DNA of 64,000 bases from Zhouia spongiae (GTDB taxonomy: Bacteria > Bacteroidota > Bacteroidia > Flavobacteriales > Flavobacteriaceae), in NCBI RefSeq assembly GCF_022760175.1, contig NZ_CP094326.1, positions 186,001 to 250,000 on the forward strand. The letters run 5' to 3'. This document shows, piece after piece, positions 32,100 through 52,946 of the stretch. Position 1 is the first letter of the stretch. Each line of letters begins with the position of its first letter. A program made the position numbers and the translations under genes. Under the pieces are notes generated by a model, which had not been told where the DNA came from, ran no database searches, and was given only the letters and a program-made list of their open reading frames with translations.

Positions 32100-32116
32100 A
32101 GCTTAAGTCTTTCTAG

Positions 32117-32187
32117 CACGGGTGGAGAGATTCGAACTCCCATCAACGGTTTTGGAGACCGCTATTCTGCCATTGAACTACACCCGT
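32117..32187 (-). tRNA. tRNA-Trp (anticodon CCA)
   Basis: 71-nt cloverleaf, acceptor ACGGGTG/CACCCGT, anticodon stem GCGGT/ACCGT around loop CTCCAAA, T loop TTCGAAT, CCA not encoded. Lies between tuf and secE on the same strand. Confidence 0.96.
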
Positions 32188-46132: not shown

Positions 46133-46153
46133 TCAATTAAAGGTGATTGGTTT

Positions 46154-46194
46154 GAAAGCTCCACCAATTCAACATAGTGGAGCTTTCTCTTTTC
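46154..46194 (+). terminator. Terminator of marR-nitroreductase-yceI operon
   Basis: GAAAGCTCCAC (46154-46164) with GTGGAGCTTTC (46177-46187), 11-bp stem, followed by TCTTTTCT. Confidence 0.85.
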
Positions 46195-46235: not shown

Positions 46236-46266
46236 TTTGAAAATTAAAATTTCATTTCTATATTTG
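46236..46266 (+). promoter_or_regulatory. Promoter of the trp operon
   Basis: TTTG (46236-46239), 19 bases, TATATTTG (46259-46266): full match to the Bacteroidota consensus. Transcription would start near 46273, about 15 bases before the leader-peptide ATG. Confidence 0.75.
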
Positions 46267-46287
46267 GCATCATATTCAAAAACAAGA

Positions 46288-46344
46288 ATGAAAAATATAA
46301 TAAACAATACTTGGTGGTGGATCAGCTTACGTCAGAAGTCGTGA
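46288..46344 (+). CDS. trpL: trp leader peptide
   Basis: 18 codons, MKNIINNTWWWISLRQKS, with three consecutive Trp codons (46312-46320). Three tandem TGG in a short ORF between the promoter and a strong terminator, 100 bases before trpE, is the signature of ribosome-mediated attenuation. The stop codon overlaps the sequence GTCGTG (46338-46343) that can pair with CACGAC (46396-46401) in the terminator. Confidence 0.87.
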   Translation: MKNIINNTWWWISLRQKS

Positions 46345-46411
46345 GGGGCACCGCTATAGTATTATTTAAATCAAAATACGAAAAGGCTTGTCGGACACGA
46401 CAAGCCTTTTT
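46306..46411 (+). promoter_or_regulatory. trp attenuator (alternative RNA structures)
   Basis: Segment 1 with the Trp codons (AATACT at 46306-46311 and GGTG at 46313-46316 or 46316-46319) can pair with segment 2 (CACC at 46349-46352 and AGTATT at 46358-46363). The terminator is AAAAGGCTTGTCG-GACA-CGACAAGCCTTTT (46381-46410) plus T. GTCGTG next to the leader stop can instead bind CACGAC and break the terminator's 3' arm. A ribosome stalled at TGG leaves GTCGTG free, while one at the stop codon covers it. The terminator is certain; the antiterminator is only 6 bp. Confidence 0.7.
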
Positions 46412-46445
46412 TCATTTTAAAAACTTTTGAAATTCATCATAAGAA

Positions 46446-47846
46446 ATGACAACATACCAATTAAAAACGCATTACAAACAAATATTAGCCGACACCATTA
46501 CTCCGGTAAGTGTCTATCTAAAAATCAGGGATCGCTACCCTAATAGCATCTTACTGGAAAGTAGCGATTATCATGCAAACGACAATAGCTTTTCATACAT
46601 CTGCTTTAACCCCATAGCATCTATTAAAGTTGAAGCTGATACGATTACCAGACAATACCCTGACGGTACTTTAAAAAGAATTCCAACAGAAAGCAAGGTA
46701 AACGTTCCCCTGGCCATAGAAGAATTTGCACAACAGTTCAAAGCAGACAAAAATGGGTTTAAATTTATCAATAACGGCCTGTTTGGATATATTGCCCATG
46801 ATGCGGTGAGATACTTCGAACAGGTAGAGGTAACAAAAAAAGAGGGGCACCTTGATATCCCCGACATATACTATGCCGTCTATCAGAATATCGTAGCTAT
46901 CAATCATTTTAAAAATGAGGCCTATATCTTTGCTCATTGTTACGATTCAGAAAATAATATTTCTCAAATAGAGCAGCTGTTAAGTTCTAAAAATTTCGCT
47001 ACTTATAACTTCCATAAAGAAGGGGAACCTGTTTCGAACCTTACCGACAATGAATATAAAGAACATGTAGCCCTGGCGAAAAAGCACTGTGCGCGCGGCG
47101 ATGTATTTCAATTGGTATTGAGCAAGCGTTTCTCACAAAAGTTTAAAGGAGACGAATTTAACGTATACAGGGCCCTAAGGAGTATCAATCCTTCTCCTTA
47201 CTTATTCTATTTTGATTACGGGAACTTTAAAATATTCGGAAGTTCTCCCGAAGCGCAACTGATCGTTAAAGAAAACAAAGCAGAGATCCACCCTATAGCC
47301 GGCACCTTCAAACGTACCGGTAATGACGAAAAAGATTCCGAACTGGCAAAAAAACTGGCAAAAGACGAAAAAGAAAACAGCGAACATGTAATGCTGGTAG
47401 ACCTCGCCAGAAACGACCTGAGCCGCCACGGAAATCATGTCAGTGTAGACACCTACCGGGAAGTTCAGTTCTTTTCACACGTAATTCACCTGGTGTCGAA
47501 AGTAACCGCCCGGAAAAAAGCTGAAACACCGACCATGCAGGTGGTAGCCGATACATTCCCTGCAGGTACCTTAAGTGGCGCTCCCAAGCATATGGCACTA
47601 CAATTAATAGACAAATACGAAACCGTGAACAGGAACTTTTATGGAGGAGCTATCGGTTTTATGGACTTTCACGGAAACTTCAATCATGCTATCATGATCA
47701 GAACATTCTTGAGTAAAAATCATGAACTGCACTATCAGGCAGGAGCCGGACTAGTCTCTGCTTCCAATCCTGAAAGTGAATTACAAGAAGTATACAATAA
47801 ACTGGGAGCCCTTAACAAAGCGCTCGATATGGCCGAAAGCATTTAA
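46446..47846 (+). CDS. trpE: Anthranilate synthase component I
   Basis: 466-residue chorismate-utilising enzyme making anthranilate with TrpG-supplied ammonia. The Trp feedback-site motif LLES is at 36-39, and the active-site segments FGSSPEAQLIVKENKAEIHPIAGTFKRT, GHAELAN-type VMLVDLARNDLSRHG and AGAGLVSASNPESELQEVYNKLGAL are present. First structural gene of a complete trpEGDCFBA operon behind an attenuator. Confidence 0.97.
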   Translation: MTTYQLKTHYKQILADTITPVSVYLKIRDRYPNSILLESSDYHANDNSFSYICFNPIASIKVEADTITRQYPDGTLKRIPTESKVNVPLAIEEFAQQFKADKNGFKFINNGLFGYIAHDAVRYFEQVEVTKKEGHLDIPDIYYAVYQNIVAINHFKNEAYIFAHCYDSENNISQIEQLLSSKNFATYNFHKEGEPVSNLTDNEYKEHVALAKKHCARGDVFQLVLSKRFSQKFKGDEFNVYRALRSINPSPYLFYFDYGNFKIFGSSPEAQLIVKENKAEIHPIAGTFKRTGNDEKDSELAKKLAKDEKENSEHVMLVDLARNDLSRHGNHVSVDTYREVQFFSHVIHLVSKVTARKKAETPTMQVVADTFPAGTLSGAPKHMALQLIDKYETVNRNFYGGAIGFMDFHGNFNHAIMIRTFLSKNHELHYQAGAGLVSASNPESELQEVYNKLGALNKALDMAESI

Positions 47847-47869: not shown

Positions 47870-48433
47870 ATGAAAAAAATATTAGTTATAGACAACTACG
47901 ACAGCTTTACCTACAATCTGGTTCATTACCTCGAAGACCTCAATTGTGAGGTGGCCGTAATACGTAACGATCAACTTACACTGGATGAAGTTGAGCCATT
48001 TGATAAAATAGTATTGTCGCCTGGACCGGGGATACCGGATGAAGCCGGGCTGTTAAAGCCTATCATCGAAAAGTATGCTCCTACCAAAAGTATATTCGGG
48101 GTGTGCCTGGGTATGCAGGCTATCGGTGAAGTTTTCGGAGGAAAATTAATTAACCTCGATAAGGTATATCATGGCGTAGCAACAAAAGTAACAGTCACCG
48201 AAGAAGATGTTTTGTTTAAAGACCTCCCTGAAAAGTTTGAGGTTGGTCGCTACCACAGCTGGGTAGTAGACACCAACCTACCCGAAGTCTTAAAGGCAAC
48301 CTCTTATGATGAGAACGGACAACTCATGTCCCTCCGTCATATCGTATATGATGTCTCGGGAGTACAATACCATCCCGAATCGGTTTTAACACCTTATGGA
48401 AAAAAAATATTGGAAAACTGGTTGAATAATTAG
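47870..48433 (+). CDS. trpG: Anthranilate synthase component II (glutamine amidotransferase)
   Basis: 187-residue class I glutamine amidotransferase, delivering ammonia to TrpE. Catalytic triad: C79 in FGVCLGMQ, H168 and E170 in YHPES. 23 bases after trpE, unfused to it. Confidence 0.96.
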   Translation: MKKILVIDNYDSFTYNLVHYLEDLNCEVAVIRNDQLTLDEVEPFDKIVLSPGPGIPDEAGLLKPIIEKYAPTKSIFGVCLGMQAIGEVFGGKLINLDKVYHGVATKVTVTEEDVLFKDLPEKFEVGRYHSWVVDTNLPEVLKATSYDENGQLMSLRHIVYDVSGVQYHPESVLTPYGKKILENWLNN

Positions 48434-48519
48434 CCTTTGGTACTGAGCACTTAGAATACTACCTGATTCTATTGCAACGTACTCAATACTTATTACTCAC
48501 ATCTCAATACTGGAATAAA

Positions 48520-49515
48520 ATGAAACAAATATTAAACAGACTCATAAACCACGAAACCATCTCGAAAGAAGAAGCTAAAAATGTGCTTGTGAATATTTCT
48601 AAAGGCGAATACAACAACAGCCAGATAGCGGCTTTCCTCACCGTTTATATGATGCGAAGTATTACCATAGAAGAACTGGAAGGATTTCGTGATGCTTTAC
48701 TCGAACTATGTGTCCCGGTAGACCTGAGCGATTTTAATACGATCGACATCGTTGGCACCGGTGGCGATGGCAAAGATACGTTTAACATCTCAACGCTATC
48801 GTCTTTTGTTACTGCCGGGGCAGGGATCAAAGTAGCCAAACATGGTAACTACGGGGTATCGTCTAAATGTGGATCGAGTAACGTAATGGAATACCTCGGT
48901 ATTAAATTCTCAAACGACGGAGATTTTATTAAAAGATCGGCCGACCGGGCCGGCATTACCATACTACATGCACCGCTCTTCCACCCGGCCATGAAAAATG
49001 TGGCCCCTATCCGAAGAGAACTTGCCGTTAAAACCTTCTTCAACATGCTTGGCCCAATGGTAAATCCTTCTTTTCCTAAAAATCAGCTACTGGGAGTTTT
49101 TAATTTAGAATTGGCCCGGATGTATAGCTATCTATACCAGAATACCGACAAGAATTACAACATCATCCATGCACTCGACGGCTATGATGAAATTTCGCTT
49201 ACAGGCGCCACGAAAGCAATAGGGAATAAATCAGAACAAATGTTGCTGCCCGAAGATTTCAAGGTTACTACCGTTGCCCCATCTGATATATACGGAGGCG
49301 GAAGCATTGAAGAGTCGGCTAAGATTTTTGTAAACATCCTGAACGGAAATGGAACAGAAGCACAAAATAATGTTGTATGTGCCAATGCAGGAATGGCTAT
49401 TGCTACGGTAAACGATATAACTCCTGTTGAAGGTTTTAACATGGCCAAAGAAAGTTTGCTCTCAGGAAAAGGATTACTCGCATTAAAAAAGCTTCAGGAA
49501 CTTAGTAAAAATTAA
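48520..49515 (+). CDS. trpD: Anthranilate phosphoribosyltransferase
   Basis: 331 residues. The start is the ATG at 48520 (MKQILNRLINHETISKEEA); the frame is open to a TTG at 48472, but those residues have no family counterpart. GTGGDGKDTFNIST binds the phosphoribosyl pyrophosphate and KHGNYGVSS the anthranilate/PRPP. Transfers phosphoribose to anthranilate. Not fused to trpG. Confidence 0.96.
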   Translation: MKQILNRLINHETISKEEAKNVLVNISKGEYNNSQIAAFLTVYMMRSITIEELEGFRDALLELCVPVDLSDFNTIDIVGTGGDGKDTFNISTLSSFVTAGAGIKVAKHGNYGVSSKCGSSNVMEYLGIKFSNDGDFIKRSADRAGITILHAPLFHPAMKNVAPIRRELAVKTFFNMLGPMVNPSFPKNQLLGVFNLELARMYSYLYQNTDKNYNIIHALDGYDEISLTGATKAIGNKSEQMLLPEDFKVTTVAPSDIYGGGSIEESAKIFVNILNGNGTEAQNNVVCANAGMAIATVNDITPVEGFNMAKESLLSGKGLLALKKLQELSKN

Positions 49516-49529
49516 TTTAAAAACAACTG

Positions 49530-50315
49530 ATGAATATTCTAGATCAAATAGTAAATGATAAAAGGAAGGAAGTAACCTTAAAAAAGAGCCTGATTCCAAT
49601 TAATCAACTGGAAGCTTCTGTGTTGTTTGAAAGAGAAACAATTTCCCTGGCAGAAAAACTGCGAAACAGTAATACCGGCATCATTGCCGAACATAAAAGA
49701 CGCTCCCCGTCGAAATCGGTTATTAACCAAAAAGTAAGTGTTTCTGAGGTAGCCAGAGGCTACGAAGCAGCAGGAGTATGCGGGATGTCTGTACTAACCG
49801 ACGGCAAGTATTTTGGCGGGTCATTGGACGATTTACTGTTGGCCAGAGCTTCAGTGAACATCCCTTTACTACGGAAAGAGTTTATTATTGATGAGTATCA
49901 ACTCATAGAAGCCAAAGCCTATGGGGCGGATGTAATACTGCTTATTGCCGCCATTTTAGACAGGAAAGAGATTGAATCATTATCAAAATGTGCAAAAAGT
50001 TTAGGCCTGGATGTACTTTTGGAAGTACATGATGAAGAGGAACTACATAAGTCTATTATGCCTGGTCTGGACATGCTGGGGGTTAATAACAGAAACCTGA
50101 AAACCTTTGAGGTAAGTATCGAAACCAGTAAAGAACTATCAACGTTGATTCCTGATGAATTTATAAAAGTCTCAGAAAGCGGTATCAGCGCCGTGAACCC
50201 TATTAAAGATTTACAATCCTACGGATATAAAGGATTTTTAATTGGAGAAAATTTTATGAAAACTGAAAATCCGGGACAAAGTGCCATCGATTTTATTAAA
50301 GAATTAGAAAAATGA
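49530..50315 (+). CDS. trpC: Indole-3-glycerol phosphate synthase
   Basis: 261-residue TIM barrel. Conserved AEHKRRSPSK with the catalytic lysine, the EVHDEEEL segment and GVNNRNLKTFEV are present. Closes the indole ring from CdRP. Its stop overlaps trpF by four bases (ATGA). Confidence 0.97.
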   Translation: MNILDQIVNDKRKEVTLKKSLIPINQLEASVLFERETISLAEKLRNSNTGIIAEHKRRSPSKSVINQKVSVSEVARGYEAAGVCGMSVLTDGKYFGGSLDDLLLARASVNIPLLRKEFIIDEYQLIEAKAYGADVILLIAAILDRKEIESLSKCAKSLGLDVLLEVHDEEELHKSIMPGLDMLGVNNRNLKTFEVSIETSKELSTLIPDEFIKVSESGISAVNPIKDLQSYGYKGFLIGENFMKTENPGQSAIDFIKELEK

Positions 50316-50965
50316 AACTGAAAATATGTGGAATGAAATATCCGGAAAACATGATAGCTGTTGCAGACTTGCAACCAAACTATCTTGGATTCATTTTTCA
50401 CGAGAAGTCGCCCAGGTTTTTAAATGACAAAATACCAACACTTCCGGACGATATTATAAAAACAGGAGTCTTTGTAAATGTATCTGAAGAATTTATCGTA
50501 AAGAAAGTTGAAGAATATAAACTAGCTGCGATCCAATTACACGGCGAAGAATCACCTGGGTTTTGTAGTGCTTTGAAAAGCAAATTGTCATCTCGGGCAC
50601 AGTCGGGAGATCTCACACTTATCAAGGTATTTTCTATAAAAGATGATTTCAATTTCGATGTTTTAAAACCCTACGAGAAAATTGCTGACTATTTTTTGTT
50701 TGACACAAAAGGACAATTACCTGGTGGAAACGGATATACTTTTGATTGGTCGATATTAAAAGGCTATCCTTCCAAGACTCCTTTCTTTTTAAGTGGCGGT
50801 ATCGGGATAGATGAAGTAGAAAAAATAGTTGAAATATCTAACACAGACCTGCCTGTTTATGCCATTGATGTAAACAGCAGGTTTGAAATAGCCCCGGGTC
50901 AAAAAAACATAGAACAACTAAAAGAATTCAAAAATAAATTAAGCGGTCTGCTAAAGCATCGCTAA
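50312..50965 (+). CDS. trpF: Phosphoribosylanthranilate isomerase with in-frame repeat-derived insert
   Basis: 217-residue TIM barrel, Amadori rearrangement of phosphoribosyl-anthranilate. Catalytic C6 in LKICGMK and D131 in FDTKGQLPGGNG are present. Residues about 92-102 (SSRAQSGDLTL) sit where homologues I recall go directly from KEKL to IKVFS. The coding DNA there (50586-50617) matches a palindromic repeat common in Flavobacteriia that often yields the peptide SSRAQSRDL. The insert lies in a surface loop between a helix and strand, so function may be kept. trpC overlaps the start. Confidence 0.93.
   Translation: MKLKICGMKYPENMIAVADLQPNYLGFIFHEKSPRFLNDKIPTLPDDIIKTGVFVNVSEEFIVKKVEEYKLAAIQLHGEESPGFCSALKSKLSSRAQSGDLTLIKVFSIKDDFNFDVLKPYEKIADYFLFDTKGQLPGGNGYTFDWSILKGYPSKTPFFLSGGIGIDEVEKIVEISNTDLPVYAIDVNSRFEIAPGQKNIEQLKEFKNKLSGLLKHR
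50586..50617 (+). repeat. Palindromic repeat inside trpF
   Basis: About 32 bases read as TGTCATCTCGGGCACAGTCG and GGAGATCTCACA, an imperfect palindrome (ATCTC...GAGAT). It resembles the flavobacterial repeat with CTCGAGCGCAGTCGAGAG, with the stem partly decayed. No second copy was noticed in this window. Identification of the family is from memory. Confidence 0.55.
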
Positions 50966-50982
50966 ATTGAAAACACAACGCA

Positions 50983-52164
50983 ATGAGTTATCACGTAAAC
51001 GAAAAAGGATATTACGGAGAGTTTGGAGGAGCTTTTATTCCGGAAATGTTATATCCAAATGTTGAAGAACTACGTCAACAATACTTGAAAGTAATGGAGG
51101 AGCCTTCATTTAAGAAAGAGTTCAATCAACTTTTAAAAGATTATGTAGGCAGGCCATCCCCTCTCTATTACGCAAAGAGAATGTCTGAAAAGTACGGTAC
51201 AAAAATCTACTTAAAAAGAGAAGACCTCAACCATACAGGCGCACATAAAGTCAATAATACCATCGGACAAATATTGATGGCAAAACGCCTCGGTAAAACA
51301 AGGATTATTGCTGAAACAGGGGCGGGTCAACATGGTGTGGCAACTGCCACAGTGTGTGCGCTTATGGGAATCGAATGCATTGTTTATATGGGAGCGATTG
51401 ATATTGCCCGTCAGGCTCCTAACGTAGCCCGTATGAAAATGCTAGGTGCCGAAGTACGACCTGCTCTTTCCGGCAGCCGCACACTGAAAGACGCTACCAA
51501 CGAAGCCATTCGCGACTGGATCAATAATCCGGTAGACACACACTATATTATCGGTTCTGCCATAGGTCCACATCCATATCCGGATATGGTAACCCGTTTT
51601 CAAAGTGTAATTTCAGCAGAAATCAAAACACAACTCAAAGAAAAGGAGGATAAAGAAAACCCGGATTATGTGGTGGCATGCATTGGTGGAGGAAGTAATG
51701 CTGCGGGTACATTCTACCATTTCTTAGATGAAAAAGAAGTAGGTATTATTGCTGTTGAAGCTGCCGGTAAGGGTGTAAACTCCGGTGAAAGTGCCGCAAC
51801 TTCAGTTTTGGGACACAAAGGAATCATACACGGATGTAAAACCTTATTAATGCAGACAGATGACGGACAGATCACAGAACCATACTCTATTTCAGCAGGA
51901 TTGGATTACCCTGGGGTAGGACCGATGCATTCACATTTACATACAACCGGCAGAGCCGATTTTATGGCAATTACAGACGATGACGCCATGAAAGCCGGAC
52001 TGGAACTATGCAAGCTGGAAGGTATTATCCCTGCCATTGAAACCAGTCATGCACTGGCCATTTTTGAACAAAGAAGATTTGAACCAAACGATATCATAGT
52101 TGTAGCACTTTCAGGAAGGGGCGATAAAGATTTAAACACGTATATTAATTATTTTGGTTTATAG
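50983..52164 (+). CDS. trpB: Tryptophan synthase beta chain
   Basis: 393-residue PLP enzyme joining indole and serine. PLP lysine is K89 in HTGAHKVNNTIGQ. GAGQHGVATAT, the phosphate-binding GGGSNAAGTF and the sodium-site region VGPMHSHLH are intact. Pairs with TrpA, whose gene follows by 23 bases. Confidence 0.98.
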   Translation: MSYHVNEKGYYGEFGGAFIPEMLYPNVEELRQQYLKVMEEPSFKKEFNQLLKDYVGRPSPLYYAKRMSEKYGTKIYLKREDLNHTGAHKVNNTIGQILMAKRLGKTRIIAETGAGQHGVATATVCALMGIECIVYMGAIDIARQAPNVARMKMLGAEVRPALSGSRTLKDATNEAIRDWINNPVDTHYIIGSAIGPHPYPDMVTRFQSVISAEIKTQLKEKEDKENPDYVVACIGGGSNAAGTFYHFLDEKEVGIIAVEAAGKGVNSGESAATSVLGHKGIIHGCKTLLMQTDDGQITEPYSISAGLDYPGVGPMHSHLHTTGRADFMAITDDDAMKAGLELCKLEGIIPAIETSHALAIFEQRRFEPNDIIVVALSGRGDKDLNTYINYFGL

Positions 52165-52187
52165 TTGTTAATATTAATGATTTGGAA

Positions 52188-52946
52188 ATGAATAGAATTC
52201 ATAAAAAACTACAAGAAGAAAAAAAATTACTTTCTATATATTTTACGGCTGGATATCCTAAGCTCGAAGATACCGTACCCATTATTGAAAAACTTCAGGA
52301 AAACGGAGTCGACATGATCGAAATAGGGCTGCCTTTCAGCGACCCTCTGGCAGACGGTCCTACCATTCAGGAGAGCTCGACCGAAGCGCTGAAGAATGGA
52401 ATGACAACCAAAAAACTTTTTGAACAGTTAAAGGACATCCGTAAAACAGTTCATATACCACTAATCATTATGGGTTACTTTAATCCGATGATGCAATACG
52501 GAATAGATGCATTTTGTGCCAAATGCGCCGAAATAGGTATCGACGGACTAATTATTCCGGATCTGCCGGTAGATGTTTATGAAGAAGAATACAAAGAACA
52601 GTTTGAAAAATACGGGCTTTCCAATGTTTTCTTAATAACGCCTCAAACCTCAGATGAGCGTATTCGCTTTATTGATTCTGTATCAAATGGTTTTATCTAC
52701 ATGGTGAGTTCTGCCAGTGTTACAGGAGCAAAAAACACATTCGGAGATGTTCAGGCTCAATACTTTGAGCGGATTCATCAATTAAATTTAAAAAATCCAC
52801 AAATTGTAGGATTTGGCATCAGCAATAAAGACACGTTCGAAGCTGCCACAAAGCTTGCCAAAGGAGCAATCATAGGTTCTGCCTTCATAAAAATGCTCAA
52901 TAAAAAAGGAATTGAAGGGATCCCTGATTTTGTAAAGTCTATATGA
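52188..52946 (+). CDS. trpA: Tryptophan synthase alpha chain
   Basis: 252 residues from the ATG at 52188; a TTG two codons upstream is also in frame. Catalytic glutamate E45 in MIEIGLPFSDP and aspartate D56 in LADGPT are present, and GFGISNKD binds phosphate. Cleaves indole-3-glycerol phosphate to indole. Last trp gene of the operon. Confidence 0.97.
   Translation: MNRIHKKLQEEKKLLSIYFTAGYPKLEDTVPIIEKLQENGVDMIEIGLPFSDPLADGPTIQESSTEALKNGMTTKKLFEQLKDIRKTVHIPLIIMGYFNPMMQYGIDAFCAKCAEIGIDGLIIPDLPVDVYEEEYKEQFEKYGLSNVFLITPQTSDERIRFIDSVSNGFIYMVSSASVTGAKNTFGDVQAQYFERIHQLNLKNPQIVGFGISNKDTFEAATKLAKGAIIGSAFIKMLNKKGIEGIPDFVKSI

Follow-up and report, generated by a model that had tools for sequence, protein, structure and literature searches.

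The leader of the tryptophan biosynthesis operon in Zhouia spongiae is a further member of an already known RNA family, Bacteroid-trp (RF01692). It probably (about 0.75 in our estimate) acts as a ribosome-mediated transcription attenuator of that family, with an antiterminator that pairs with the terminator loop and 3' arm; this reading rests on sequence comparison and folding models. The pairing at its centre, termed 2:4, joins a segment at the leader stop codon (segment 2) to the loop of the terminator and the first part of the 3' arm (segment 4'), and it is conserved and covarying in relatives. The window, that is, the whole stretch analysed, comprises 64,000 nt of NZ_CP094326.1 (positions 186,001–250,000; Z. 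spongiae, GCF_022760175.1). Coordinates are window-based and features lie on the forward (+) strand unless stated otherwise, and about 250 relatives served as the comparison set.

In the window, the complete trp leader is located between a YceI-family gene (NCBIfam) and an equally complete trpEGDCFBA operon, in which trpE (46446–47846) is the first gene and is followed by trpG, trpD, trpC, trpF, trpB, and trpA (47870–52946). Reading of the sequence downstream of the YceI-family gene gives a terminator-like hairpin, GAAAGCTCCAC...GTGGAGCTTTC, followed by a T-rich run (46153–46190), which would shield the leader from transcription of that gene. The leader has its own promoter, matching the Bacteroidota-type consensus both in its sequence and in relatives and consisting of TTTG (46236–46239) and TATATTTG (46259–46266) with 19 nt in between; the element TAnnTTTG precedes 136 of 141 leaders of the organism's own family as against about 8% of shuffles. 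The leader peptide reading frame, MKNIINNTWWWISLRQKS, has 18 codons and a TGA stop (46288–46344), and three tandem Trp codons occupy 46312–46320. The promoter, the 18-codon peptide with its tandem Trp codons, and the strong terminator before trpE that were described in the initial annotation are all present, with the functional unit ending at the U-tract (about 46412) rather than at 46445 as given there. A tRNA-Trp (CCA) gene lies on the opposite strand (32116–32187, -) about 14 kb from the operon, and this closeness is probably a coincidence.

Membership in Bacteroid-trp is supported by a full-length match (model positions 1–131 of 131) at 46268–46392 with a cmscan score of 65.3 bits against a gathering score of 49 bits. 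Furthermore, the element stands 5' of tryptophan biosynthesis genes in a member of the Bacteroidota whose closest named TrpE relatives are Flavobacteriaceae (e.g., Eudoraea and Joostella, 80% identity), and its short reading frame carries WWW at codons 9–11. The motif was put forward as a Bacteroidetes cis-regulatory candidate by Weinberg et al. in 2010 (PMC2864571), and in Flavobacterium psychrophilum it has been noted upstream of the trp operon and compared to the E. coli leader (PMC6414381). Ribosome-stall attenuation as proposed in the initial annotation is still the best reading, and the pairing on which it was based is conserved, but the leader is not a flavobacterial case that had gone undescribed. 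The genome holds a single copy; the only other candidates, a 25-bit match and a match on the opposite strand of the terminator, were judged to be chance. The same was concluded for Atu_C9, GibS, and other Rfam matches over the element, which fell under their cut-offs. When GTCGTG followed by GGCTTGTC was used as a search pattern, this leader was likewise the sole match. The RF01692 model stops within the 5' arm of the terminator, and so covers neither the loop and 3' arm nor the 2:4 pairing; if prolonged through the loop and 3' arm, it would gain its most conserved part.

The Trp codons are kept in the relatives, and the loss of their conservation, which the initial annotation would have taken as a refutation, was thus not seen. 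In a first set of leaders, WWW was found in 144 of 152 and WW in the remaining 8. A second set was obtained via the TrpE protein alone and is therefore unbiased by the RNA model; here, a reading frame with tandem Trp codons was found within 400 nt 5' of trpE for 73 of 80 trpE genes. The other seven loci seemed to have no leader, but TGGTGG and the beginning of the terminator lie 410–570 nt upstream. In two leaders (L275 and L343, at about 1140–1456), a small gene with a GIY-YIG nuclease domain is located between the trp leader and trpE, and the same arrangement is suspected in L290, L294, L301, L315, and L333. The GIY-YIG-bearing relatives examined are Flagellimonas and an uncultured Flavobacteriaceae bacterium, and in such loci the attenuator would control the GIY-YIG gene too. 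Of 199 genomes sampled from the organism's own taxonomic family, 154 carry Bacteroid-trp, which is patchier across the phylum (47 of 395 genomes). One f11 genome (G756, contig C6) has two Bacteroid-trp leaders in a single trp cluster (L352 and L353, at 31626 and 36574), one 5' of trpB-trpE and the other 5' of trpD, both with WWW and the 2:4 pairing.

Two hairpins dominate the structure of the leader, which folds far more stably than its own dinucleotide shuffles (z -8.3). In the minimum-energy fold (-23.3 kcal/mol), a protector hairpin termed 1:2 (46301–46368) pairs the Trp-codon segment with the segment past the stop codon and encloses segment 2, in agreement with the RF01692 structure and with the pairing that the initial annotation had expected of the Trp codons. 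The intrinsic terminator (46381–46410) follows with a 13-pair stem, the loop GACA (46394–46397), a U-tract reaching to about 46412, and a stability of -20.0 kcal/mol. All nine core pairs of the terminator are kept in 73 of 73 relatives, with compensatory changes at five of them. RNAalifold applied to the 73-sequence alignment A1 returned the terminator alone, probably because the register of 1:2 varies, and the inner 1:2 helix counted on the same alignment was not clearly superior to slid versions of itself.

The core of segment 2, GTCGTG (46338–46343), overlaps the leader stop codon and is the proposed antiterminator strand. Its partner, segment 4' (CACGAC, 46396–46401), combines the final two loop bases of the terminator (CA) with the first four bases of the 3' arm (CGAC). 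The initial annotation had placed CACGAC in the terminator arm; the pairing that it named is the conserved one, and the geometry that it called the leader's own is more distinctive than it stated, with the partner lying in the loop and 3' arm and not in the 5' arm. Taken from the window sequence alone, the match is equalled by 30 of 2000 shuffles (about 0.015), and it is conservation in relatives that makes it decisive at the level of sequence. A 2:4 pairing of at least 5 bp occurs in 183 of 190 leaders from the organism's own family and two related groups, and in 127 of 134 own-family leaders segment 2 forms an uninterrupted run of at least six pairs with the loop and 3' arm. The independent TrpE-derived set gives at least five such pairs in all 73 leaders analysed. 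Of the six core pairs, all but one are present in at least 97% of the sequences of alignment A1, and the remaining pair is present in 92%; two core pairs show changes on both strands within the own family.

Covariation also extends to other clades. In f11 together with the f12 order, the helix is lengthened to GTCGTRAG:CTYACGAC with 94% of cells paired. An exchange between A-U and G-C at one position affects 11 of 32 sequences and gives a covariation score that no shuffle reached. An f2 clade has kept the pairing in unrelated sequence, GTTGGTTC:GAACCGAC, together with a further compensated change, GTTGATTC:GAATCGAC. Additionally, the pairing of each leader with its cognate terminator exceeded all 2000 permutations in f1, in f11 combined with the f12 order, and in f2. 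These permutations and shuffles are uncorrected for shared ancestry, for which the recurrence in separate clades with differing sequences does part of the work. For f11, the shuffle test on single leaders gave a weak result (20% at p ≤ 0.05), and permutation and covariation were therefore used.

The spacing of these elements fits a ribosome that would either expose or cover segment 2. In 124 of 130 own-family leaders, the distance from the first Trp base to the start of the 2:4 helix is 25–28 nt, and the stop codon moves by about 16 nt, mostly from about 10 nt after to 6 nt before that start. The start of 2:4 is thus fixed relative to the Trp codons; a ribosome stalled there would end upstream of segment 2, and a ribosome at any of these stops would cover it. 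The growing transcript was also folded with an assumed ribosome footprint masked. With the ribosome stalled at the third Trp codon, 127 of 130 own-family leaders gave 2:4 a probability above 0.5, and with the ribosome at the stop only 1 of 130 did so; the corresponding values for the window were 0.99 and 0.00. As all 130 folded leaders possess the helix, these folds test its exposure and not its presence. Thus, an intrinsic terminator separates a Trp-rich leader reading frame from the structural genes, and computationally a pairing that competes with the terminator is exposed by the stall and masked at the stop, which are among the hallmarks of the attenuator class.

Based on these features, a working scheme can be proposed in which the leader would be translated. 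With ample charged tRNA-Trp, the ribosome would reach the leader stop and cover segment 2, allowing the terminator to form. Without a ribosome, hairpin 1:2 would sequester segment 2 with the same outcome; in the model, the 1:2 fold holds segment 2 in the window, yet 2:4 would also form without a ribosome in 57 of 130 relatives, so this protection is not general. A ribosome stalled on the Trp codons would open 1:2 and leave segment 2 free just past its leading edge, where it could pair with the loop and the beginning of the 3' arm as they emerge from RNA polymerase. The apex would be captured before the hairpin nucleates and while the polymerase crosses the U-tract, and readthrough into trpE would follow. 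At equilibrium, the terminator beats the 2:4 helix (-9.8 kcal/mol), and in the masked folds it displaces 2:4 about 4–5 nt past the end of the stem; 2:4 must therefore act kinetically if it prevents termination, and this is most likely how it works.

The most familiar alternative is textbook attenuation, in which a leader segment pairs with the 5' arm of the terminator (2:3) and 2:4 is a coincidental match. The E. coli trpL attenuator works in this way, with segment 2 pairing with the terminator 5' arm. The Z. spongiae leader shares with it the tandem-Trp leader peptide, the protector hairpin, the terminator, and the expected stall logic. In own-family leaders, however, complementarity to the 5' arm was no greater than chance predicts (mean z +0.28; 1% of leaders at p ≤ 0.05), and 2:4 was stronger than 5'-arm pairing in 131 of 134. 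Moreover, an incidental match would not covary, as 2:4 does, and for this leader the textbook design is therefore improbable. Such pairings do exist in sister groups. In f3, the permutation test for 2:4 was negative, and 81% of cells are paired between the leader segment GGCAACC and the 5'-arm sequence GGTTGCC (L123–L127 and L159–L188); in part of f2, CAAAGTCTT stands opposite AAGACTTTG of the 5' arm (L120, L249, L252, L255, and L259). By their sequences, these leaders look like the 2:3 design, with covariation backing in f3 that is weaker than that for 2:4.

A less remote alternative, though still an unlikely one, accepts attenuation and assigns 2:4 another role. It would form a pseudoknot on the terminator and adjust termination, pausing, or the stability of the RNA, while something else would be the main cause of antitermination. 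Own-family helices mostly use four or five loop bases and two to four of the roughly eight core bases of the 3' arm, and since so few arm bases are taken, a shortened terminator stem could coexist with 2:4 as a pseudoknot; the equilibrium advantage of the terminator points the same way. Against this, the predicted exposure of segment 2 only under Trp starvation and its covering at the stop fit antitermination, and a pro-termination effect would run counter to the logic expected of a biosynthetic operon. It is very improbable that the peptide is irrelevant and that the operon is either controlled through its leader by other means (a T-box, a TRAP-like protein, or a riboswitch) or not regulated at all. 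Such systems are known for trp genes in Firmicutes, but the window contains no Rfam covariance-model match to a T-box or riboswitch, and every leader of the first set has tandem Trp codons. Capture of the terminator loop and 3' arm by segment 2 is thus the preferred reading.

Comparison with known systems places this geometry more precisely. RF01692 itself has in common with the leader the position before trp genes, the hairpin enclosing the Trp codons, and the conserved start of the terminator, and differs in that its model stops short of the loop and 3' arm and so does not include 2:4. The difference from E. coli trpL lies in the antiterminator, which is 2:3 there and is placed here on the loop and 3' arm, the 5' arm being without a complement. 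To our knowledge, the ribosome-mediated attenuators described so far use the 5' arm. Actinobacterial trp attenuators similarly have double or triple UGG codons and a terminator with poly-U, and they are described as classical, with complementary triples gGCC-rGCy-GGCC common to antiterminator and terminator (PMC1262725). In the ilvBNC attenuator of Corynebacterium glutamicum, antiterminator and terminator hairpins overlap, as they do here, and transitions are reported to be possible without complete hairpin disruption, although that system concerns branched-chain amino acids and is unrelated in sequence (PMC11857589). The main text of PMC2864571 gives no antiterminator for Bacteroid-trp. The full-text literature searched yielded no description of an antiterminator on the loop and 3' arm, a provisional result as most subscription papers and the 2010 supplement lie outside that search.

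Since 2010, Bacteroid-trp has stood as a predicted cis-regulatory RNA for which no switch is stated in the literature searched, and the 2:4 pairing offers a concrete mechanism for it. Testing this model should be exceptionally simple, since some of the antiterminator bases lie in the loop, contribute nothing to the stem, and can be changed without weakening the terminator. We would give even odds to the broader proposition that in most Bacteroidota trp attenuators the antiterminator captures the terminator loop and 3' arm kinetically, a geometry undescribed for ribosome-mediated attenuators, and that the family switched between it and the classical 5'-arm geometry during evolution. If this is true, antitermination can block hairpin nucleation at the apex, so that the early-made 5' arm need not be occupied, and two antiterminator geometries would exist inside one homologous leader family.
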